Below, in pieces: positions 1,972 through 23,086 of a stretch of 32,585 nt of DNA. How positions within the stretch are numbered: position 1 is the stretch's first letter; the number at the start of each line of letters is the position of its first letter. The translations under genes and the position numbers were made by a program. The notes beneath the pieces are model-generated. The model was given only the letters and a program-made list of their open reading frames with translations. It did not search any database and was not told the origin of the DNA. This DNA is from Lachnospiraceae bacterium (lineage in GTDB: Bacteria; Bacillota; Clostridia; Lachnospirales; Lachnospiraceae), in NCBI GenBank assembly GCA_024693225.1, contig JAILLI010000170.1:1-32585 (forward strand), given 5' to 3'.

Positions 1972-2385
1972 ATGGACAGACGCGAGATCAATGAGAAGTA
2001 TGCCGAGATAGGTGCGGATTTAATCAAGACAGAGGATGCTCTGGTGAATATAGCGAACAGCCAGGCTACGATCATATACTTATCATCCGAGCACAAGAAG
2101 AACAGCTCCGGCAAGGTGGTTCATGCTGAATGCGAGAAAGTATCCGAGAAGTATAAGTGGGGCATACCGTGCGATTTTACCATAACCGTATTTGAGCCTA
2201 ATGTCGAGGGTATGACGGACGAACAGCTCCGCATACTCATATTCCATGAATTATTACACGTAGGTATCACGTTCAATTCCGATGGCACAGAGAGTTACTT
2301 TATAGTTCCTCATGATCTTGAGGATTTTAAACTTATAGTTGACCGTTATGGTACAGATTGGAGTAAACATGGACTTGAAGATTGA
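1972..2385 (+). CDS. Putative phage metallopeptidase (HExxH)
   Basis: A 137-residue protein with a zinc-protease motif HELLH at residues 92-96 and a downstream PHD (residues 113-115) that may give the third ligand. This layout fits the small putative metallopeptidase family found in Firmicutes phages next to ParB/methyltransferase genes. The substrate is unknown; it may act on a host or phage regulator, by analogy with ImmA-like peptidases, which is a guess. A clear AGGAGG precedes the start, right after terminator copy A. The end overlaps the next gene by 17 bases. Confidence 0.75.
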   Translation: MDRREINEKYAEIGADLIKTEDALVNIANSQATIIYLSSEHKKNSSGKVVHAECEKVSEKYKWGIPCDFTITVFEPNVEGMTDEQLRILIFHELLHVGITFNSDGTESYFIVPHDLEDFKLIVDRYGTDWSKHGLED

Positions 2386-3640
2386 ATATTTACCTATCAA
2401 GGAACTTAAGCCTTATGAGAAGAATGCTCGTAAGCACGCTGACGCGGATGTCAGTACGATCATGAAGTCGATACAGGAGTTCGGTTTTAAGGACCCTATC
2501 GGCATATGGAGTGACAAGAATATCATTGTCGAGGGACACGGCAGATTACTCGCTGCTAAAAGATTGGGCTTGAAAAAGGTTCCTGTTATCCGGTTGGATG
2601 ATCTGACCGATGAGCAGAGACGCGCATATGCTCTGGCACATAATAAGACTGCAGAGATGTCCGAATGGGACAGCGACCTGTTGGATGAAGAACTTGACGG
2701 CATTTTGGACATTGATATGAGCGATTTCGGTTTTGACCTGTCCGAGGATGAGGAAGAAAAAGAGGTTGTTGAAGTAGACACACCGGAACCACCCGAGGAG
2801 CCGAAGTCACATTATGGACAGATATATCAGTTAGGCAGGCACAGGCTTATGTGCGGTGATTCGACCAAGATGGCTGATGTGAAGAAGTTACTGGACGGTA
2901 AGAAGGCTGATTGTGTTGTTACCGATCCACCATACAATATGGGCTATGAGGGAGCAGGTAACACCAAAGACCGTGCATCCAAGAAGATAATGAATGACAA
3001 GATGCCCGAAGCAGACTTTAAGAAGTTCCTGTTGTCGGTATACAAGTGCTACCTGGATGCCATGAAGGACGGTGCATCCATCTATGTATTCTACAAGGAG
3101 TTGGGTTCCGGCGTATTTATGCAGGCTATGCGTGAGGGGGGGCTTACCTTTAAGCAGGAGCTGATATGGGTTAAGTCACAGCTTGTTTTGGGTGGCTCTA
3201 AGTACCAATCTATGTACGAACCGTGCCTTATGGGATGCAAGGGCAAGTCTATCAAGGTATGGAACGGGGGACGCAAGCAGAGGTCCGTCATCGAGTCTAT
3301 CGACCTCATGACCGAGGAAGAACTGCGAGAGACATTAAAGGATGTTCTGGCAGCGGACGATCCCGATGTCATCCGCGAGAAGAAGCAGTTACACAATGAC
3401 CTGCATCCGACCATGAAACCTGTTAGGCTTATCGCAAAACTCACACAGAACTCATCCGATGCAGGGGATGTTATATTAGATCTATTTGGCGGTTCGGGTA
3501 CTACTCTTATCGCTGCAGAACAGATTGACCGTACCGCGTATCTTATGGAGTTGGACCCCAGGTACGTGGATGTCATTATACAGAGATATGAGGACTTTAC
3601 CGGAGACAAGGCGGTCCTCTTGACAAAGGAGGAAGAGTAA
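2369..3640 (+). CDS. ParB-like domain / DNA methyltransferase fusion
   Basis: A 423-residue protein. Residues 1-95 form a ParB/Srx-type N-terminal domain (IVEGHGRLLAAKRLG at 52-67). Residues 150-423 form an amino-methyltransferase with motif IV DPPY at 186-189 ahead of the AdoMet motif DLFGGSGTT at 371-379, the permuted order of beta-class N4-cytosine or N6-adenine enzymes. It methylates DNA with S-adenosylmethionine, probably to protect phage DNA or to mark packaging or replication; no restriction enzyme is nearby. The ATG at 2369 follows GGAG; a longer frame from 2339 is less likely. Its stop overlaps the next start, an AdoMet synthetase. Confidence 0.93.
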   Translation: MDLKIEYLPIKELKPYEKNARKHADADVSTIMKSIQEFGFKDPIGIWSDKNIIVEGHGRLLAAKRLGLKKVPVIRLDDLTDEQRRAYALAHNKTAEMSEWDSDLLDEELDGILDIDMSDFGFDLSEDEEEKEVVEVDTPEPPEEPKSHYGQIYQLGRHRLMCGDSTKMADVKKLLDGKKADCVVTDPPYNMGYEGAGNTKDRASKKIMNDKMPEADFKKFLLSVYKCYLDAMKDGASIYVFYKELGSGVFMQAMREGGLTFKQELIWVKSQLVLGGSKYQSMYEPCLMGCKGKSIKVWNGGRKQRSVIESIDLMTEEELRETLKDVLAADDPDVIREKKQLHNDLHPTMKPVRLIAKLTQNSSDAGDVILDLFGGSGTTLIAAEQIDRTAYLMELDPRYVDVIIQRYEDFTGDKAVLLTKEEE

Positions 3641-4428
3641 TGTTTGAAAAGGTCAATATGTCCCATCCGGACAAGGTGGCTGACAGGATAGCAGGGGCAT
3701 TGGTCGATTATGCCTATTCCCAGGAAGAGAACCCGAAGATTGCTGTCGAGGTTCTTATCGGGCATGGCAAGTGTCACATCATCACGGAGACCTCGGTACC
3801 CATTCCGAGAGAGAAGATTCTGTATACCGTGAACAGGATCGCAGGGTGTATGGAAGTCATCTATGACGAGAACAGGCAGGATGTGCATCTGGCAGGGAAC
3901 CAGGAGGGCGGTATACGCTGCGGTGACAATGGAATATTCAAAGGCGTTCCGGTCACAGAGGAGCAGCAGACATTATCCGCTATCGCAAAGCATTTATATG
4001 AGCACTTCCCTACGGACGGCAAGTTTATCATCAACGGGAACCGTATGATCATCTGTCAGAGCAATGCCAAGATAGACGAGATACTTGATACCGGACTGGT
4101 ATCGAATGCGATCATCAATCCGTTAGGGTATTGGACTGGCGGTACCGATGTCGACACGGGTGCTACAAACAGGAAGTTAGGTTCTGACATGGGTGATGCC
4201 GTAACAGGCGGTGGACTCCATGGCAAGGACTTATCAAAGGCAGATGTATCTGTCAATATATACGCTCATCTCAAGGCACAGAGTACGGGCGAGGAAGTAA
4301 AGTTATGTTGTGCTATAGGCGATACCCATGTGGACGGCAGACCTTATAGCGAGATTGTAGAAATAGCGAGGGAATATATAAACAAATTAGGCGGCTTTGA
4401 AAAGCTCGCAGAATGGGGACTTATATAG
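3640..4428 (+). CDS. Phage-type short S-adenosylmethionine synthetase
   Basis: A 262-residue MetK relative that would make S-adenosylmethionine from ATP and methionine. It keeps the N-terminal SHPDK (8-12; catalytic His and Mg-binding Asp in cellular MetK), a GDNGIFKG segment at 95-102 in place of the cellular GDQG loop, and the C-terminal GGGLHGKDLSK (190-200; cellular GGGAFSGKDPSK with active-site lysines). Cellular enzymes have about 380-400 residues, so a large part of the middle and C-terminal domains is missing. The start overlaps the methyltransferase stop by one base, so the two are translationally coupled and the product probably supplies that enzyme. Activity is inferred from motifs only. 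Confidence 0.85.
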   Translation: MFEKVNMSHPDKVADRIAGALVDYAYSQEENPKIAVEVLIGHGKCHIITETSVPIPREKILYTVNRIAGCMEVIYDENRQDVHLAGNQEGGIRCGDNGIFKGVPVTEEQQTLSAIAKHLYEHFPTDGKFIINGNRMIICQSNAKIDEILDTGLVSNAIINPLGYWTGGTDVDTGATNRKLGSDMGDAVTGGGLHGKDLSKADVSVNIYAHLKAQSTGEEVKLCCAIGDTHVDGRPYSEIVEIAREYINKLGGFEKLAEWGLI

Positions 4429-17478: not shown

Positions 17479-20454
17479 ATGAGGAATGACATAAGCCAGG
17501 CTATTATAGCCAAAACATCTGATAGATTGCAGACACCTGCATATAATTCCGAGCCAAAACTGTCGCTTGTTGTATCAAGAAAAGAGCTTTTATTAGATGA
17601 TTTTGATTTTACTGAAAGAAGAAGAGTGCGAAGAACTGCCCTTAACACTATTTCAGATATCGGTATTGCGATAAGCCATCCGAAGGTCGGGCATGAAGAT
17701 GAAGAGGCTTGGGTAACATATATTAGGGACGGGCACGTATATCTCCGTCACAGCAAACTGTCCGGTACCGTCCGCGAAATAGATTGGGCTGAACTTGAGA
17801 TCGGTGCTCCTGCAGGCACGAAGTGTGATGTGGCATTTGTGGCGGTACCGCAGGAAAACATGAGAGGCGTAACGGAGTATATCACAGGCAGAAAGCCCTT
17901 GGTTTTTTATATCCAGGGTTCCTTTATCTACTATGTTGATACAAACGAGGCGGTGATCACTCCACATATGCTGCTTGCAGTTACCGCTACAGATATTTCG
18001 GTAAGGCAGACACCTTTAGGATTAGGGCTGTTTTATGTGAAGGCTCTGGATCATACAAAAGTATATTATCGAATATACAGCAATGGGTCCTGGGGAAGTG
18101 AAAACCTTGTAGATAGCAGCATGAGCGTGGCGATTGAATCGTTGTCTACGTTCAGCACTTTGGATGGGTTTGGTGTGCAGGCTTATGCCAATGGAAAGTT
18201 GTACAGATGTGTTGGTGATATCTCCGGCAGCAGTTTTTCTTTTGGCACATGGTTTGAGATTGCAGATTCAACGGGCACAGGTGCTGTTGTTGAGTATTAT
18301 AACGGAATCCGTGAGGCATTTTTTGACGCTACCATAGAGGAAAGCACAGGCGGTGAAGGCGGTTTCTGTTATAGTGAGGGTAATGAGAATTGGTTTTTTG
18401 ATTCCGGGAAGAAGTTTTATTCGAAACATTATTCCGTAATAGATTTTGATCACACTAACAGAGGAACCGTATATTTTACTACGTTGTATCATGGCGTAGA
18501 GAATGACATAGTTTATTTTATAAGATATGTGTACGCAAAGGATGTTTCATCTTATACGGAAATTGTAACAAAAACCCTGCAGACGGACAATCCGATTACA
18601 CAGATCAATGCGGTACTTAAAAACATTGATGATTCATTATATGTATCTGATTCAACAATATTCTCTCCATCAGCAATGATGAGTCTGGGAGTGAAATATG
18701 GCGATTCTGAAATAGTAGATCTTGGGATCGCGTATATCGACCAGGCTACTTTTGAGCACGGGGTAGAGACAGTTGCCATATCCGGCAGAAACAAGACAGG
18801 TGTCTATCTGCGCGATCAGACATTTATAGATAATAGCGAGTTTAACGAGACACCTACACAGATGGTCGCAACGATCATGGATATTTTCGGAATTGACGAT
18901 TACGAGTGCGATGGTTCTGCAGATGGGACCTTTGAAAATCCCAATATTATCACGTTGATTGTAGATGCCGATACCACAGGCTTGAAGGCACTCGAAACAT
19001 TAAATGAGTTGTTGTCGGATGATTCTGCAGGCAAGAAGTGGGATTTTGAGGAATTACCCAATGGCAAGATAATCGTAGGTTATGATGAGTTTCGGAGCAC
19101 ATATAGCCCTAAAAGCAATTATGTTTTTAATGGCATAAATGATGTTTTTGCTAAGACGGTAGACCGGAGTATTGATGGAGTTTATACTAAGGTCAGATGC
19201 ACAGGTACCACACCTAAAGGCAAAGAGATTTCCTATACATACGATGTCAAGAATTTTCGGTTCTGGGATGCAGGTGAGAACAGGATATATCACGCACCAC
19301 ACGTTGATGGTGTCAGCAAGACCGAATTAAAGGCTTATGCCAAGGCTCTTGCAAAGCAGTTAAAGTATATCGGCAGGATCATCACTTATAGGATGAACCT
19401 TAAGCCGCAGCTCGTAATCGGAGATGTCGCGTTGGTGACCTATGGTCAAGAACCCGGCGAAACAGATAAACTCGGGAGCATCACTGAGATAGTACATACT
19501 CTTGGGGCTGACGGGTATTTTACCGATTTCACCATAACATCTGGCGGTAATGTTATGGATGTATCTCCTAATGTTGTTTATGTAGCAGATAAGTCAGCAA
19601 GGGGTACGAATCGTAAAAAGAGGGCATATGATTATCTTGGCGGTGGCAATGGCAACGTTACCAACATAATGTCTACCACAGTTAACGGCAGTGATGCAAA
19701 TTTAGTGGAAATTGCAAGGAATTTCGGATTTAGGTTCCTGGATGAGCCCACTCATGTTGAGGGTGAGTATGATCCGGAGAACAACTCCATTAAACTTAGG
19801 TGGGCTGATCCAGATGATATCTCGACCTTTGAACCGGATACTTGCGAATGGGCAGGCACCGTAATTGTGCGAAACGATAATGGTGCTCCAATGCATAGGT
19901 GGGACGGTGTTGTCATAATTGATTCATCTACCAAGGATGCTTATAAGAATGAGTGGCTTATAGATGATAATGACATCAAAAAAGGTATAGTATATTATTA
20001 TGGGTTTTTCCCGTATCATATTGATGCAAATCATCTTGACAGCGATGGGAATCCGAAAAAGCATTATAGATGGACCAAGGTTATAAGTGTAGTGGCAGGT
20101 GCAGACTTAGAGCCTGCAACAATTACAGGAGTTTCCGTTGATAGGGTGAATGCGATTGTAACATTTAATATTCCTACTTTGGCAAATGGCTCGTATGCCG
20201 CAATCACTCTTGTTGCTAAAAAGAATGGTACGCCATTGGATGAGACCGATGGAATCCCGGTTGCCTTAAGTTCTTCTGATACATCGGCAACAGTAGGCGG
20301 TCTTGAGGAATTATCGAATTACTATTTTATTATTTTTTCGGAGGATGATCAAGGCAATACCGCTGTATCAGATCCCGTTGGTCCCTATAAGACAGGTGAA
20401 AAGCCTAAAAAGTGGAAAGAAACAATCAGTTACTTAAAGATGATTACAGGATAA
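17479..20454 (+). CDS. Large tail protein (baseplate/fibre type) with fibronectin III-like end
   Basis: A 991-residue protein. Residues 1-340 look like repeated beta blades (GHVYLRHSKLSG and YYRIYSNGSWGSE units), perhaps a propeller; 380-690 resemble tail-associated (Tal/prophage endopeptidase-like) proteins (SIDGVYTKVRCTGTTPKGKEI region). From about 750 to the end it has Ig/fibronectin III-like modules (TGVSVDRVNAIVTFNIPTLANG). It probably forms the tail tip that contacts the host wall. GAGGTGTAAGG precedes ATG. The specific activity is unproven; no peptidase motif is evident. Confidence 0.85.
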   Translation: MRNDISQAIIAKTSDRLQTPAYNSEPKLSLVVSRKELLLDDFDFTERRRVRRTALNTISDIGIAISHPKVGHEDEEAWVTYIRDGHVYLRHSKLSGTVREIDWAELEIGAPAGTKCDVAFVAVPQENMRGVTEYITGRKPLVFYIQGSFIYYVDTNEAVITPHMLLAVTATDISVRQTPLGLGLFYVKALDHTKVYYRIYSNGSWGSENLVDSSMSVAIESLSTFSTLDGFGVQAYANGKLYRCVGDISGSSFSFGTWFEIADSTGTGAVVEYYNGIREAFFDATIEESTGGEGGFCYSEGNENWFFDSGKKFYSKHYSVIDFDHTNRGTVYFTTLYHGVENDIVYFIRYVYAKDVSSYTEIVTKTLQTDNPITQINAVLKNIDDSLYVSDSTIFSPSAMMSLGVKYGDSEIVDLGIAYIDQATFEHGVETVAISGRNKTGVYLRDQTFIDNSEFNETPTQMVATIMDIFGIDDYECDGSADGTFENPNIITLIVDADTTGLKALETLNELLSDDSAGKKWDFEELPNGKIIVGYDEFRSTYSPKSNYVFNGINDVFAKTVDRSIDGVYTKVRCTGTTPKGKEISYTYDVKNFRFWDAGENRIYHAPHVDGVSKTELKAYAKALAKQLKYIGRIITYRMNLKPQLVIGDVALVTYGQEPGETDKLGSITEIVHTLGADGYFTDFTITSGGNVMDVSPNVVYVADKSARGTNRKKRAYDYLGGGNGNVTNIMSTTVNGSDANLVEIARNFGFRFLDEPTHVEGEYDPENNSIKLRWADPDDISTFEPDTCEWAGTVIVRNDNGAPMHRWDGVVIIDSSTKDAYKNEWLIDDNDIKKGIVYYYGFFPYHIDANHLDSDGNPKKHYRWTKVISVVAGADLEPATITGVSVDRVNAIVTFNIPTLANGSYAAITLVAKKNGTPLDETDGIPVALSSSDTSATVGGLEELSNYYFIIFSEDDQGNTAVSDPVGPYKTGEKPKKWKETISYLKMITG

Positions 20455-20466
20455 AGGGGGTATAAT

Positions 20467-21003
20467 ATGCCACAGGAAATTGAATATAGTGCCGAATTTG
20501 ATTTTACTGATGATGTTGAATCTTGGAAAGTCAATCGTTCTGGAGCGGTTGATGAGTGGGTATGGTTGAGAAATCTTGGAGATTATACGCTGACCACATC
20601 AAGTAAAACACCGTCCGAAGTTTTTGCAAATACAAGTGTGCTTACAACAGACACATTAAATTATGGTAATAACCCTGTCCGAATTTTGCAGGACACCGCC
20701 ACATATTTTGAAAACACTTGGAATTTAGACAGTATGAGTTATATTTCAGCAAGACCTTATTATACGAGTGCTAAAGGCTTACATTCAACAATGAGTTTGC
20801 AATTAGGTGGTGGGTATTCGGCATCATATAATTACTCTTATGATTGCTTTGGAATTGACTTTTTGATTGCGGTTAATCATGCCACAATGGAAGCAAGGGT
20901 AATATGGTTATTGTTTAGAACACAAGCACATACAGCGATTGAAAAATATGTTCAAAGTAGTGCAAGTCAATCAGAATATTTTTCGTTAAGCAAATTCATG
21001 TGA
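20467..21003 (+). CDS. Accessory tail protein, unknown
   Basis: A 178-residue protein, Ser/Tyr/Thr-rich and mostly beta-like, directly after the tail-tip gene with an AAAGGGGG ribosome site. Together with the next gene it looks A+T-richer by eye than the tail genes before it, as is frequent for exchanged host-range genes. It may belong to the receptor-binding part of the tail; no known domain is recognised. Confidence 0.65.
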   Translation: MPQEIEYSAEFDFTDDVESWKVNRSGAVDEWVWLRNLGDYTLTTSSKTPSEVFANTSVLTTDTLNYGNNPVRILQDTATYFENTWNLDSMSYISARPYYTSAKGLHSTMSLQLGGGYSASYNYSYDCFGIDFLIAVNHATMEARVIWLLFRTQAHTAIEKYVQSSASQSEYFSLSKFM

Positions 21004-21021
21004 AAGGATCGGTGATGAATT

Positions 21022-21618
21022 ATGTTAGTAAATGCGATTAAAGGATTTTTTAGACAGCCGTATATATTTAATAATGTTGTAGGTGGTGCAAGCACACAAA
21101 GCCTTGGTTCAAGTTCTTTTGAGAGATTTTTTGGTAGGACGGCTCCTAATGCTTTTACAAACGAAACAAAGACTACAGGTACATGGTATGCTGAATCATT
21201 CGTAGATGTTGGCTTTGGTGACACTCCCGTTACGGCTGATGATATAAAATTAGCAGATGGGAATGTGACATTAGAAAACGCTTACACCACTGCTATTTCA
21301 CAAGACTGGACCTATAGAATACCATTACAAGGTAAAGAATACTTGACAGTGATCGGTCAATCAAATAATTCAAAGTCTGATAATGAAACCATTAATAAGA
21401 CAGTTGTTTACAGGAATGATACTGACCACAATGTTACAGTTAAAGAAATAGGGTTTTATCAGCTTGTCCGTGACTTGGCTGTAACAACAAAGTCTAATTG
21501 GGATAATCAAGATACATTACCCTTTGTATTAGGTTTTAGAAAAGTGCTTGAAAATCCTATAACATTTGCTCCGGGTGATGTATATGCCATTACTTACAGA
21601 ATAGCATTGGATGTATGA
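21022..21618 (+). CDS. Accessory tail protein, possible receptor-binding or tip component
   Basis: A 198-residue beta-rich protein with an N-terminal segment (FFRQPYIFNNVVGG) and many Thr/Asn residues; the second half (TVVYRNDTDHNVTVKEIGFY) has the feel of phage structural proteins that contact the environment. It follows the A+T-rich gene at 20467 and is coupled to the next gene by overlap (ATGATGG). The function is inferred only from position between tail tip and lysis genes. Confidence 0.65.
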   Translation: MLVNAIKGFFRQPYIFNNVVGGASTQSLGSSSFERFFGRTAPNAFTNETKTTGTWYAESFVDVGFGDTPVTADDIKLADGNVTLENAYTTAISQDWTYRIPLQGKEYLTVIGQSNNSKSDNETINKTVVYRNDTDHNVTVKEIGFYQLVRDLAVTTKSNWDNQDTLPFVLGFRKVLENPITFAPGDVYAITYRIALDV

Positions 21619-21806
21619 TGGAAAATCATAATTGGAAACACGCAAAGACAGAAAAGTGGGAAACTTGCGAGGTAATATGCCTTAAATGCTTGAATAGGTG
21701 GATAGCCTGTTTCCCACAAGAAGTATTGCTAAAAGAATTAGAGTGTCCCGAAGGTCATGTGGGGTATGTGATTAAGACAGGGCAGACAATAACAGAAGAT
21801 ACTTAA
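21615..21806 (+). CDS. Small zinc-binding phage protein
   Basis: A 63-residue protein with Cys at CEVICLKC and a third Cys-Pro (ELECPEGH), which can form a zinc ribbon with the His. It overlaps the stop of the previous gene by 4 bases. Similar Cys-rich small proteins occur at the left of the window. Function unknown. Confidence 0.65.
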   Translation: MMENHNWKHAKTEKWETCEVICLKCLNRWIACFPQEVLLKELECPEGHVGYVIKTGQTITEDT

Positions 21807-21819
21807 AATAACCATTTTA

Positions 21820-22030
21820 TTATTGGGTGGCGGAATAGGCAATCGTCCACAAGCGAGTGGGGATTGATAAAACAAGTGCAACGCACTTTGTAAAGTAGAC
21901 GCTATGGTGACGGGTAGACAACCACCTATTATGCCTGTGGTGGACAGTTAGAAACGCATTCACAGACCATCTTCGGATGATGGGCGTTAGGTTAAGCTGT
22001 TATGCAGGGTGCAAATCCCTGCCTCAATAA
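21820..22030 (+). ncRNA. Putative structured RNA with tRNA-like ends
   Basis: A 248-base gap between genes holds a multi-branched fold. The ends pair (TTATTGGG at 21820-21827 with CCTCAATAA at 22022-22030, eight pairs). The 5' part reads like a tRNA-Leu D arm (GGCGGAATAGGCA), and the 3' part is a perfect T-arm (CAGGG, loop TGCAAAT, CCCTG at 22005-22021). Between them lie a ten-pair hairpin (21840-21866), an eight-pair hairpin (21872-21891), a CTGT/ACAG hairpin whose GGTGG loop can pair with CCACC at 21922-21926, and a hairpin AACGC/GCGTT (21953-21988) holding a CATC-TTCG-GATG tip. No normal anticodon arm is seen. I do not recognise the family. Confidence 0.65.
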
Positions 22031-22054
22031 AACCAAAATTTCAAAGGAGGAAGT

Positions 22055-22147
22055 ATGAAATATGTAGTATGTGGTTTACTTTATATTGTCACAGTAGTTA
22101 TGTTTTTAGCAATATTGAAAGGAGGTAATGATGATGACGATACTTAA
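22055..22147 (+). CDS. Tiny single-span membrane peptide, lysis region
   Basis: A 30-residue frame with an AAAGGAGGA ribosome site: one hydrophobic span (VCGLLYIVTVVMFLAIL) followed by GGNDDDDT. It overlaps the next gene by 20 bases. The place directly before a holin-like gene suggests a lysis modulator or antiholin, an inference from position. Too short to be certain it is a gene, but the ribosome site is strong. Confidence 0.55.
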   Translation: MKYVVCGLLYIVTVVMFLAILKGGNDDDDT

Positions 22148-22340
22148 AAGATTGGCAAAACTGATTGATGTTAAAAGCCTTGTTACTTTTGTGCTTACTG
22201 GCGTGTTTGCTTATCTGTCGGTAATCGGGGTTATAAGCGGTGATCAGTTCTTAACTGTATTTACCATGGTTGTCAGCTTTTATTTCGGAACCCAGACAGG
22301 CAAGCGTGAGGTTAAGGAAGAGCAGGAGGAAAACACATGA
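22128..22340 (+). CDS. Holin-like membrane protein
   Basis: A 70-residue protein: short basic N-terminus, two hydrophobic spans (about 18-36 and 40-55) and a charged tail (KREVKEEQEEN), the build of a small phage holin. It would open the membrane for the endolysin encoded next, whose start overlaps its stop by 4 bases. Three consecutive ATGs begin the frame behind AAAGGAGG; the first is given. Confidence 0.78.
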   Translation: MMMTILKRLAKLIDVKSLVTFVLTGVFAYLSVIGVISGDQFLTVFTMVVSFYFGTQTGKREVKEEQEENT

Positions 22341-23086
22341 ATCATGTAACCATAGGGCATTTTGTATGTGATGAAAATGGACGCTCGAAAGGCGGTAAGC
22401 CAGGAGATCAGACTGGCAGAGAAGGTCGCTTGCAGGCATGGTATAATTCCGGCAAGGGATGGCAGGATGTCTTTAGGGCAAAAGAATCCAAGGTTCGGAA
22501 GAAGATAGCGGAGAACATGATCGAACTTGTGGAGAATCCTCATGTGGGTTACAATCAAGATGCAAGGACTACTCTGGATAAAGAGGCTAAGAAGGTAGAT
22601 TATGACTTCAAAAAAATAACTACAGATTGTGATACAGATTGCTCCCAGGCTACAGCAGAATGTATCATTGGGGCAGGGATACCTATATCACCGGATATGT
22701 ATACTGGCAATGAAAAGCAGCTGATAGAAGAGACGGGGCAGTTTATAACGTACGATGAGAAGAGTTATATCGATTCGGATCAGAAACTTAAAGTCGGCGA
22801 TATTCTTTTCAAGATAGGACATTCCGCAGTAGTAGTGAAGGTCCAGTATATTATAAGCAGAATCATCCGGTACCAGAACGGGAAACCGATCATGACCGGA
22901 GAGGACATAAAAAAGATTCAGAAGAGGCTAAACAAACTTATGAATTGCAAACTTGAGGTAGATGGCAAATATGGACCTAAGACTGCTGCCGAAGTAGTTC
23001 GTTTCCAAGGGAAGAAGAAGTTGGTGCCGGATGGCATTGTAGGTCGAAAGACAGCTGAAGCATTAGGCTTTTGGTGGGAGGGATGA
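22337..23086 (+). CDS. Endolysin: cysteine peptidase/amidase plus peptidoglycan-binding domain
   Basis: A 249-residue protein. Residues 1-170 resemble a CHAP/NlpC-type cysteine hydrolase: a GKPGDQTG motif at 20-27, the DCSQATAECIIGAG helix with probable catalytic Cys102, and GDILFKIGHSAVVV with probable catalytic His162. Residues about 188-245 form a PG_binding_1 repeat (IKKIQKRLNKL ... DGKYGPKTAAEVVRFQ ... DGIVGRKTAEALG). It cuts host peptidoglycan at the end of the lytic cycle. There is no signal peptide, so release needs the holin. Confidence 0.9.
   Translation: MNHVTIGHFVCDENGRSKGGKPGDQTGREGRLQAWYNSGKGWQDVFRAKESKVRKKIAENMIELVENPHVGYNQDARTTLDKEAKKVDYDFKKITTDCDTDCSQATAECIIGAGIPISPDMYTGNEKQLIEETGQFITYDEKSYIDSDQKLKVGDILFKIGHSAVVVKVQYIISRIIRYQNGKPIMTGEDIKKIQKRLNKLMNCKLEVDGKYGPKTAAEVVRFQGKKKLVPDGIVGRKTAEALGFWWEG

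Follow-up and report, generated by a model that had tools for sequence, protein, structure and literature searches.

The RNA predicted at positions 21821-22029 of the window (the whole 32,585-nucleotide stretch of Lachnospiraceae DNA analyzed here) is, judged from its sequence relatives, almost certainly one of a hitherto unannotated family of tRNA-Leu-type phage RNAs. By the same comparison, the family keeps the acceptor stem, the D arm, the T arm, and the elbow of a tRNA, and a variable structured domain replaces the anticodon arm. The best explanation of the whole is a natural tRNA scaffold that would be excised by tRNA enzymes and would carry an effector RNA; we assign this reading a probability of roughly 0.6. 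The preliminary description had proposed a phage non-coding RNA, perhaps a tRNA mimic, outside the named families. This proposal is borne out by homologues with a tRNA-Leu-type core in many phages, and an Rfam search at gathering scores returned no family for the window RNA. A large RNA family, present in the classic phages SPP1 and phi3T, seems to have been missed so far, perhaps for want of an anticodon, the feature on which tRNA finders rely.

The element lies in a 248-base gap (21807-22054) between two listed open reading frames (ORFs), one ending at 21806 and a 30-codon one starting at 22055. Its parts follow the order of a tRNA (acceptor-D-middle-T-acceptor), with the anticodon arm absent. 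They are given below together with the neighboring genes.

21615-21806: ORF of unknown family, 5' of the RNA
21821-22029, + strand: whole tRNA-like RNA, 209 nt, recognized by its 7-bp end pairing, D and T arms, and family covariation; predicted mature form
21821-21827, + strand: 5' strand of the acceptor stem, TATTGGG (positions 1-7), pairing with 22023-22029 at 7/7 positions, one pair being G-U
21828-21829, + strand: TG, i.e., U8 and G9 of the tRNA core (T8 in 87/89 and G9 in 87/89 relatives anchored without the D motif)
21830-21839, + strand: 5' half of the D arm, GCG stem and GAATAGG part of the loop, the same in relatives
21840-21866, + strand: hairpin 1 of the D-loop insert (CAATC...GATTG), with inserts at the same place in L046, L048, L058, L098, and L172
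21875-21887, + strand: hairpin 2 of the D-loop insert (AGTGC AAC GCACT)
21896-21902, + strand: 3' half of the D arm, TAGACGC; stem 21830-21832/21900-21902, with both-side changes at 2/3 D-stem pairs in alignment A1
21903-22001, + strand: replacement of the anticodon domain ("cargo"), 99 nt, of the same class in L120 and L172-L179
within 21903-22001, + strand: conserved cargo core, TATGGTGACGGGTAGA ... CACCTATTATG ... ATGGGCGTTAG
21917-22001, + strand: helix closing the cargo (21917-21922 with 21996-22001, one mismatch), abutting AU 47-48 on their 5' side
21935-21965, + strand: cargo helix 2, 21935-21939/21961-21965, with strand pairs in relatives by eye
21968-21979, + strand: cargo helix 3, a UUCG-tipped hairpin, with strand pairs in relatives by eye
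22002-22003, + strand: A47 and U48, the latter being the partner of A15 in tRNA-Leu (U48 in 61/62 D-arm-anchored relatives with a 6-bp T stem, among the matches listed)
22004-22022, + strand: six-pair T arm with the loop U54 G55 C56 A A58 A U (TGCAAAT); the 6-bp stem and G55 mark the class
22023-22029, + strand: 3' strand of the acceptor stem, CTCAATA, pairing with 21821-21827
22055-22147: 30-codon ORF immediately 3' of the RNA, preceded by a strong AAAGGAGG site; no Pfam or PHROG match, peptide membrane-like by eye
22128-22340: holin-like protein (phrog_4237, E 6e-4)
22337-23086: endolysin

The end-pairing stem reported earlier is thus the acceptor helix (21821-21827/22023-22029, 7/7 pairs), and the perfect T arm with the loop TGCAAAT was correctly placed at 22004-22022. 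The further hairpins also stand (UUCG-tipped at 21968-21979; in the D loop at 21840-21866 and 21875-21887), as does the lack of an anticodon arm; ARAGORN finds 0 tRNA and 0 tmRNA genes in the window, and the helices conserved in the window's middle class are, by eye, different ones. For the 5' part, described as D-arm-like, TG and the stem are present, and the description needs a correction: it is a tRNA-Leu-type D arm (GGAATAG ... TAGACGC) split by a two-hairpin insert in the D loop. A73 is at 22030, and CCA is not encoded. The suggested pseudoknot between CCACC (21922-21926) and GGTGG (21939-21943) lacks support: full complementarity is found in 1/7 distinct relatives that share the window's middle (by eye, in their alignment, A2); only L174, whose letters are the same as in the window, keeps it, and the other six do not.

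On the + strand, single-sequence folding energy is ordinary (z = -0.99, 31/200 shuffles as good), and the evolutionary structure (-51.2) lies about 10 kcal/mol above the computed minimum (-61.1). Therefore, the evidence for the RNA is comparative throughout. The - strand of 21815-22035 folds better than most shuffles (z = -2.04, 5/200 as good), an excess read as a side effect of strong hairpins.

BLASTN of the gap gave itself plus weak short matches in its own genome, matches in 2/37 genomes of the genus (one its own, the other over 25 bases), and no match among plasmids. A loose BLASTN search against phage records returned 7 records. Five had short T-arm matches (E 0.3-0.9; Sha1, LP65, and EG-TP1), and the remaining two matched another part by chance. 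At the places matched at the T arm lie unannotated elements of 83 to 108 nt that share the D arm and the T arm. Scanning IMG/VR for the T-arm signature yielded at least 120 stretches, the majority of which carry the RNA. The signature plus one base gave 11 stretches in the genome collection, not all of them with the RNA: none is seen in L146, and L140 and L148 are truncated. With members as BLASTN queries, and the sequence then read, the RNA was found in SPP1, phi3T, Listeria phages vB_LmoS_188 and LP-114, Leuconostoc phage LN34, Brochothrix phage BtpYZU01, Paenibacillus phage Pd_22F, and Lactobacillus phage JNU_P10. The members in SPP1, phi3T, LP65, Sha1, and other phages are not annotated as RNA. 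In phi3T, one additional base separates T stem and acceptor, and the member overlaps phi3T_57, a small predicted gene; the third LP65 copy overlaps the predicted orf80. Within the host family, the T-arm pattern is rare (7/299 genomes, own included); the full RNA stands at three loci (L184, L187, and L186) in two further genomes, and at L180-L182 the pattern is probably due to chance.

Rfam at gathering scores was also run on 24 relatives (15 + 9, the set of 9 including phi3T and one phage record without a member), and the matches reported lie beside the element, none on it. Loose-threshold Rfam matches in the window, snoRNA- and lncRNA-like, were judged to be chance. A first pattern scan built on the split D arm gave 4 matches, none of which proved on reading to be the RNA. 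In the stretches read around two relatives of the window's endolysin (L011 and L012), the RNA was not seen. Upstream of the endolysin relative in L012, a near-repeat pair and, after it, a gene resembling a reverse transcriptase by eye (~540-2050) recall a diversity-generating retroelement. Full-text literature searches gave no recognizable description of the family; subscription papers were mostly outside their scope, and an earlier description is possible.

Across the relatives, sequence comparison establishes the fold of the ends, the class signature (a 13-bp stack, G55, and AU before the T stem), the variability of the middle, and a conserved core in the class of middles to which that of the window RNA belongs. 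The refutation test set beforehand, covariation in homologues, came out very strongly in favor of the RNA. A1 is an alignment of 62 de-duplicated members among the matches listed, with the middle left out. Its covariation score is 0.695 versus 0.190 ± 0.012 in shuffled alignments, and sliding gives at most 0.151. In total, 268 cells are changed on both sides versus 69.8 ± 11.6, 0/500 shuffles being as high, and the acceptor helix has both-side changes at 7/7 pairs in the 62 relatives. The paired cells amount to 98.8% versus 74.5% when shuffled, part of this percentage, like the invariance of the D and T loops, being by construction because admission to A1 required a regular D loop and at least 6/7 acceptor pairs, and many of its rows come from the T-arm pattern.

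Three further tests, each omitting one of these filters, were made on the matches listed. Test (a) used the T arm and the nearest D-arm motif and left the acceptor unused. Among 136 distinct places, 127 had a D motif, and of these, 108 had 7/7 acceptor pairs, 10 had 6/7, and 9 had four or fewer; phi3T is among the 9 because of its extra base. At least 6/7 pairs in 118/127 places compares with a mean of 22.6 and a maximum of 36 in 1000 swaps of the 3' strand. Test (b) used the T arm and a unique perfect acceptor partner (89/117 places), the D motif being unused. The hinge nonetheless emerged: U8 in 87, G9 in 87, A14 in 87, A15 in 88, G18 in 85, G19 in 79, and A20a in 81 of the 89.

Test (c) took the D arm as its sole anchor (118 of the at least 120 loci, 113 places). 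A T arm and acceptor were present at 87/113 places and absent at 24, and 2 places were at contig ends. The 87 fall into two classes. The first, 25/87 with a 5-bp T stem, has U55 in 24/25 and a length of 81 to 84 nt in 18/25, and corresponds for the most part to ordinary tRNA-Leu. The second, 62/87 with a 6-bp T stem, has G55 in 60/62, U48 in 61/62, and lengths of 75 to 266 nt. Since anchoring on the D arm alone yields two discrete classes, G55 and the 13-bp acceptor/T stack are true marks of the class and no artefact of the T-loop pattern. Furthermore, among 117 members in the matches listed, the acceptor helix can be drawn beyond 7 pairs in 72 (one or two pairs more in 60), and base 73 is A in 69, T in 21, C in 19, and G in 8.

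The middle, from D arm to T arm, measures ~29 to 191 nt in 94 distinct cases among the matches listed and comes in many unrelated-looking classes. In 41/94 of them, versus a swap mean of 18.1 and maximum of 30, the last 8 nt can pair with the first 28 in a 6-bp helix next to AU. The window itself is negative in this test, its D-loop insert falling in the tested stretch. Its middle class recurs on nine other contigs (L120 and L172-L179; L173/L175 and L176/L177 are alike in the stretch read). The eight distinct sequences, window included, share a core of strong conservation, and in their three helices the two strands vary in concert, as judged by eye. In the relatives, likewise by eye, the closing helix reads GAGTGG/CCACTC, GAACAC/GTGTTC, or GAGCAA/TTGCTT; helix 2 reads CTGTG/CACAG, CTATG/CATAG, CTGAA/TTCAG, or CTTTAG/CTAAAG; and helix 3 reads CATC/GATG, CAC/GTG, or CGC/GCG. 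The D-loop insert is present in the window, L046, L048 (= L074, L085), L058, L098, and L172. Because only the window and L172 among the eight have it, insert and middle look like separate modules. Different middles coexist within one phage (L078, L129, and LP65), and genome G701 has two copies (L184 and L187) with the same acceptor and different middles. No common function could be read from a comparison of the members' middles. Some middles (L044, L053, L058, L119, and L037) contain by eye an inner GGTTCGAATCC-like T arm, like a nested second tRNA-like fold.

The spacing of some members bears on how their ends arise. The tandem copies in L078 (3031-2924 and 2921-2809) are 2 nt apart, and the member in L032 starts at 3807, 1 nt after a tRNA-like gene (3708-3805) with no clear anticodon in ARAGORN. 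As 1 to 2 nt leave no room for a promoter, the ends between such close neighbors must come from processing. Among the matches listed, TATAAT-like sites upstream of members number 71 versus 52.6 in shuffled sequence, and 16 versus 10.4 at 3 to 9 nt from the acceptor; the highest single count, 12 sites with a 2-nt gap, comes mostly from related Lactobacillus members. A promoter close to the 5' end is therefore not excluded for some members. Considering the tandem spacing, the tRNA arrays, and the lack of a clear fixed-distance promoter, the ends would be made by processing, most simply by tRNA enzymes, and we regard tRNA-type maturation of the window RNA as likely.

We propose the following course of events. 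The RNA would be transcribed within longer phage transcripts and excised by the tRNA-maturation enzymes of the host, with RNase P cutting at 21821, RNase Z or exonucleases acting at the 3' side, and CCA being added thereafter. The tRNA-like ends would then provide a stable natural "tRNA scaffold", whose tRNA body may serve processing, stability, and perhaps docking, and the middle domain would be an effector acting in trans, late in infection. Less certainly, the leucine-type hinge might let leucyl-tRNA synthetase (LeuRS) bind or charge the RNA. P100, a relative of Listeria phage CKA15, shows no member in 15000-45000 and 85000-131384, so the CKA15 RNA-seq of abundant RNAs is unusable as expression evidence.

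An alternative turns the emphasis around. The RNA could chiefly be a substrate or decoy of LeuRS, with the elbow binding the enzyme, either to titrate it or to provide Leu-RNA for non-ribosomal use, and the middle being secondary. According to one report, E. coli tRNA-Leu without its anticodon arm and long variable arm is still leucylated, the determinants named there being A73, A15-U48, G18G19, A20a, and D/T contacts, with the contact of U55 with G18 also mattering (PMC9976931). The window has A73 and the leucylation elements except U55, its A20a being located after the D-loop insert. A15, G18, G19, and A20a recur in 79 to 88 of the 89 members anchored without the D motif, and U48 in 61/62, in each case among the matches listed. 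However, G55 in 60/62 disturbs the G18:U55 contact, and A73 is found in only 69/117 of the members listed, so charging by LeuRS cannot be general; the large conserved middles would also be left unexplained. We consider this alternative unlikely, and charging of the window RNA itself doubtful to a similar degree. Because G55 and the variable base 73 oppose charging as a common purpose, we place the effector in the middle and give the tRNA body of the proposed scaffold a supporting role, an assignment that we make tentatively.

An arms race would also be in keeping with ends that stay constant while the middles change, and with copies of one phage that differ in the middle. The RNA might be a counter-defence decoy: lacking an anticodon loop, this tRNA mimic would tie up or mislead a host nuclease or sensor attacking tRNAs. 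A kindred idea, YrlA as a competitive inhibitor of anticodon nuclease, is voiced in PMC7790460. Against it, no connection between the middles and tRNA anticodon arms is seen. Such a decoy is rather improbable.

The genomic setting raises a different possibility. Of the flanks named in the preliminary description, the lysis genes are confirmed (holin-like protein and endolysin), and the tail label is not, since the four ORFs in 17479-21806 match no Pfam or PHROG family. Elsewhere in the window, 2339-3640 encodes a 433-aa protein with a ParB N-terminal domain joined to an N6/N4 DNA methylase. Several members follow a late activator, transcription regulator, or sigma-like gene: RinA in Sha1 (an HNH gene coming next), a transcriptional activator in EG-TP1, ArpU in JNU_P10, a transcription regulator in BtpYZU01 (before the terminase genes), and a sigma-70-like gene in vB_LmoS_188. 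The position seen so often, following the late activator and preceding the packaging genes, fits late expression; a late regulator, as the preliminary description suggested, is a candidate role. The position would suit action in cis on the late transcript (as a leader, antiterminator, or processing mark) or a packaging role as well, as would the members near the record end in EG-TP1, LN34, and vB_LmoS_188. The place varies, however: the window RNA precedes the lysis genes, the SPP1 member stands between genes 9 and 11, the three LP65 copies lie within the tRNA array, and the phi3T member is elsewhere. Moreover, SPP1 DNA packaging works in vitro without added RNA, which counts against a packaging role. 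Action in cis or in packaging is less probable still than a counter-defence decoy.

Other RNA-like stretches stand near some members. In vB_LmoS_188 (L160), the Listeria sRNA rliG (Rfam) lies at 1253-1400, directly upstream of the tRNA-like RNA at 1405-1534. A block of ~110 nt (GCTATTGGGACTGCTCTGATAGC...), nearly identical in LP65 and Sha1 (L017 ~318-428 and L018 ~338-449) and just upstream of the tRNA-like RNAs, is perhaps another phage RNA. In SPP1 (L156, ~2615-2665), a second, smaller tRNA-like stretch (GGACGG...GGGTTCAATTCCCGGAGTCCG) is seen by eye right after the member.

A bacterial Y RNA (YrlA) deserved attention since YrlA is likewise a tRNA mimic, found in some bacteria and phages, and a paper on a Listeria phage raises the idea that abundant phage RNAs are Y RNAs (PMC12282133). 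As reported, YrlA superposes on tRNA only with circular permutation (PMC11472068), its ends form a Ro-binding stem, and TruB modifies its T loop (PMC8394870). The window RNA, by contrast, is in tRNA order and has G at position 55. The YrlA model (RF02553) has no match at the window RNA and exceeds its cut-off in 0/50 records. Weak matches (E <= 1) occur in 13/50 records and likewise in 12/14 control genomes. The best match in the records scores 27 bits (E 1.8e-5) against a cut-off of 69, and in the five records holding the strongest ones no family signature is seen at the matched places. The Ro60/TROVE domain (PF05731) is found in 0/50 records, some of them fragments, and 0 times in the own genome, which is 85% complete. 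TROVE genes occur in 5/398 genomes of the same phylum, and those five loci lack YrlA at gathering score; in one of them (L169), the TROVE-domain gene stands beside a run of tRNA genes. With topology (YrlA's as reported), covariance model, and Ro60 partner all failing, identity with YrlA is rejected as highly improbable.

A decayed or intron-containing tRNA-Leu gene would explain the tRNA-Leu-type D arm, and is scarcely credible given compensatory changes, across many phages, in the stems of acceptor, D arm, and T arm, the constant signature unlike that of tRNA-Leu, the absence of an anticodon arm, and a middle conserved in eight distinct sequences, window included. An ordinary tRNA was rejected, since the 7-bp acceptor is there and the anticodon arm and the 5-bp T stem with U54 U55 C56 are not; a tmRNA was rejected as ARAGORN finds none in the window.

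Beyond the window, phages of many hosts may use leucine-type scaffolds to display changing effector RNAs, made by the host tRNA machinery and in some cases perhaps charged with leucine without an anticodon; we put this wider view at slightly less than even odds. The class marks make direct tests of the family easy.

Among known RNAs, bacterial tRNA-Leu (class II) shares with the family the 7-bp acceptor, U8/A14, the 3-bp D stem, A15-U48, G18G19, A20a, U54/A58, and C56, and in many members a helix also occupies the position where tRNA-Leu has its long variable arm. The family differs in having no anticodon arm, a 6-bp rather than a 5-bp T stem, G55 instead of U55, lengths of 75 to 266 nt (versus 81 to 84 nt in 18/25 of the 5-bp class among the matches listed), and an A73 that is not constant. 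It would be a natural example of an armless tRNA-Leu that LeuRS biochemistry suggests to be chargeable. YrlA (RF02553) is likewise a non-coding tRNA mimic with a D/T elbow, reported from phages too, whereas it is reported to be circularly permuted, with a Ro60-binding end stem, and as a TruB substrate, and no Ro60 gene was found here. Like the window RNA, tmRNA has tRNA-like ends around a large structured middle (with pseudoknots in tmRNA); in the window RNA, no tag reading frame was called, and the full tRNA-Leu D arm is present. The closest parallel is an artificial one. In the engineered tRNA scaffold, as reported, a foreign RNA takes the place of the anticodon arm beside the retained acceptor, D, and T arms and is in this way processed and protected (PMC3753655). 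Since its ends are argued to be processed by tRNA enzymes, the window RNA would be a natural analogue of this scaffold, and the family a natural example of it, differing from the design as described there in being natural, of phage origin, built on a class II core, and provided with sequence marks of its own.
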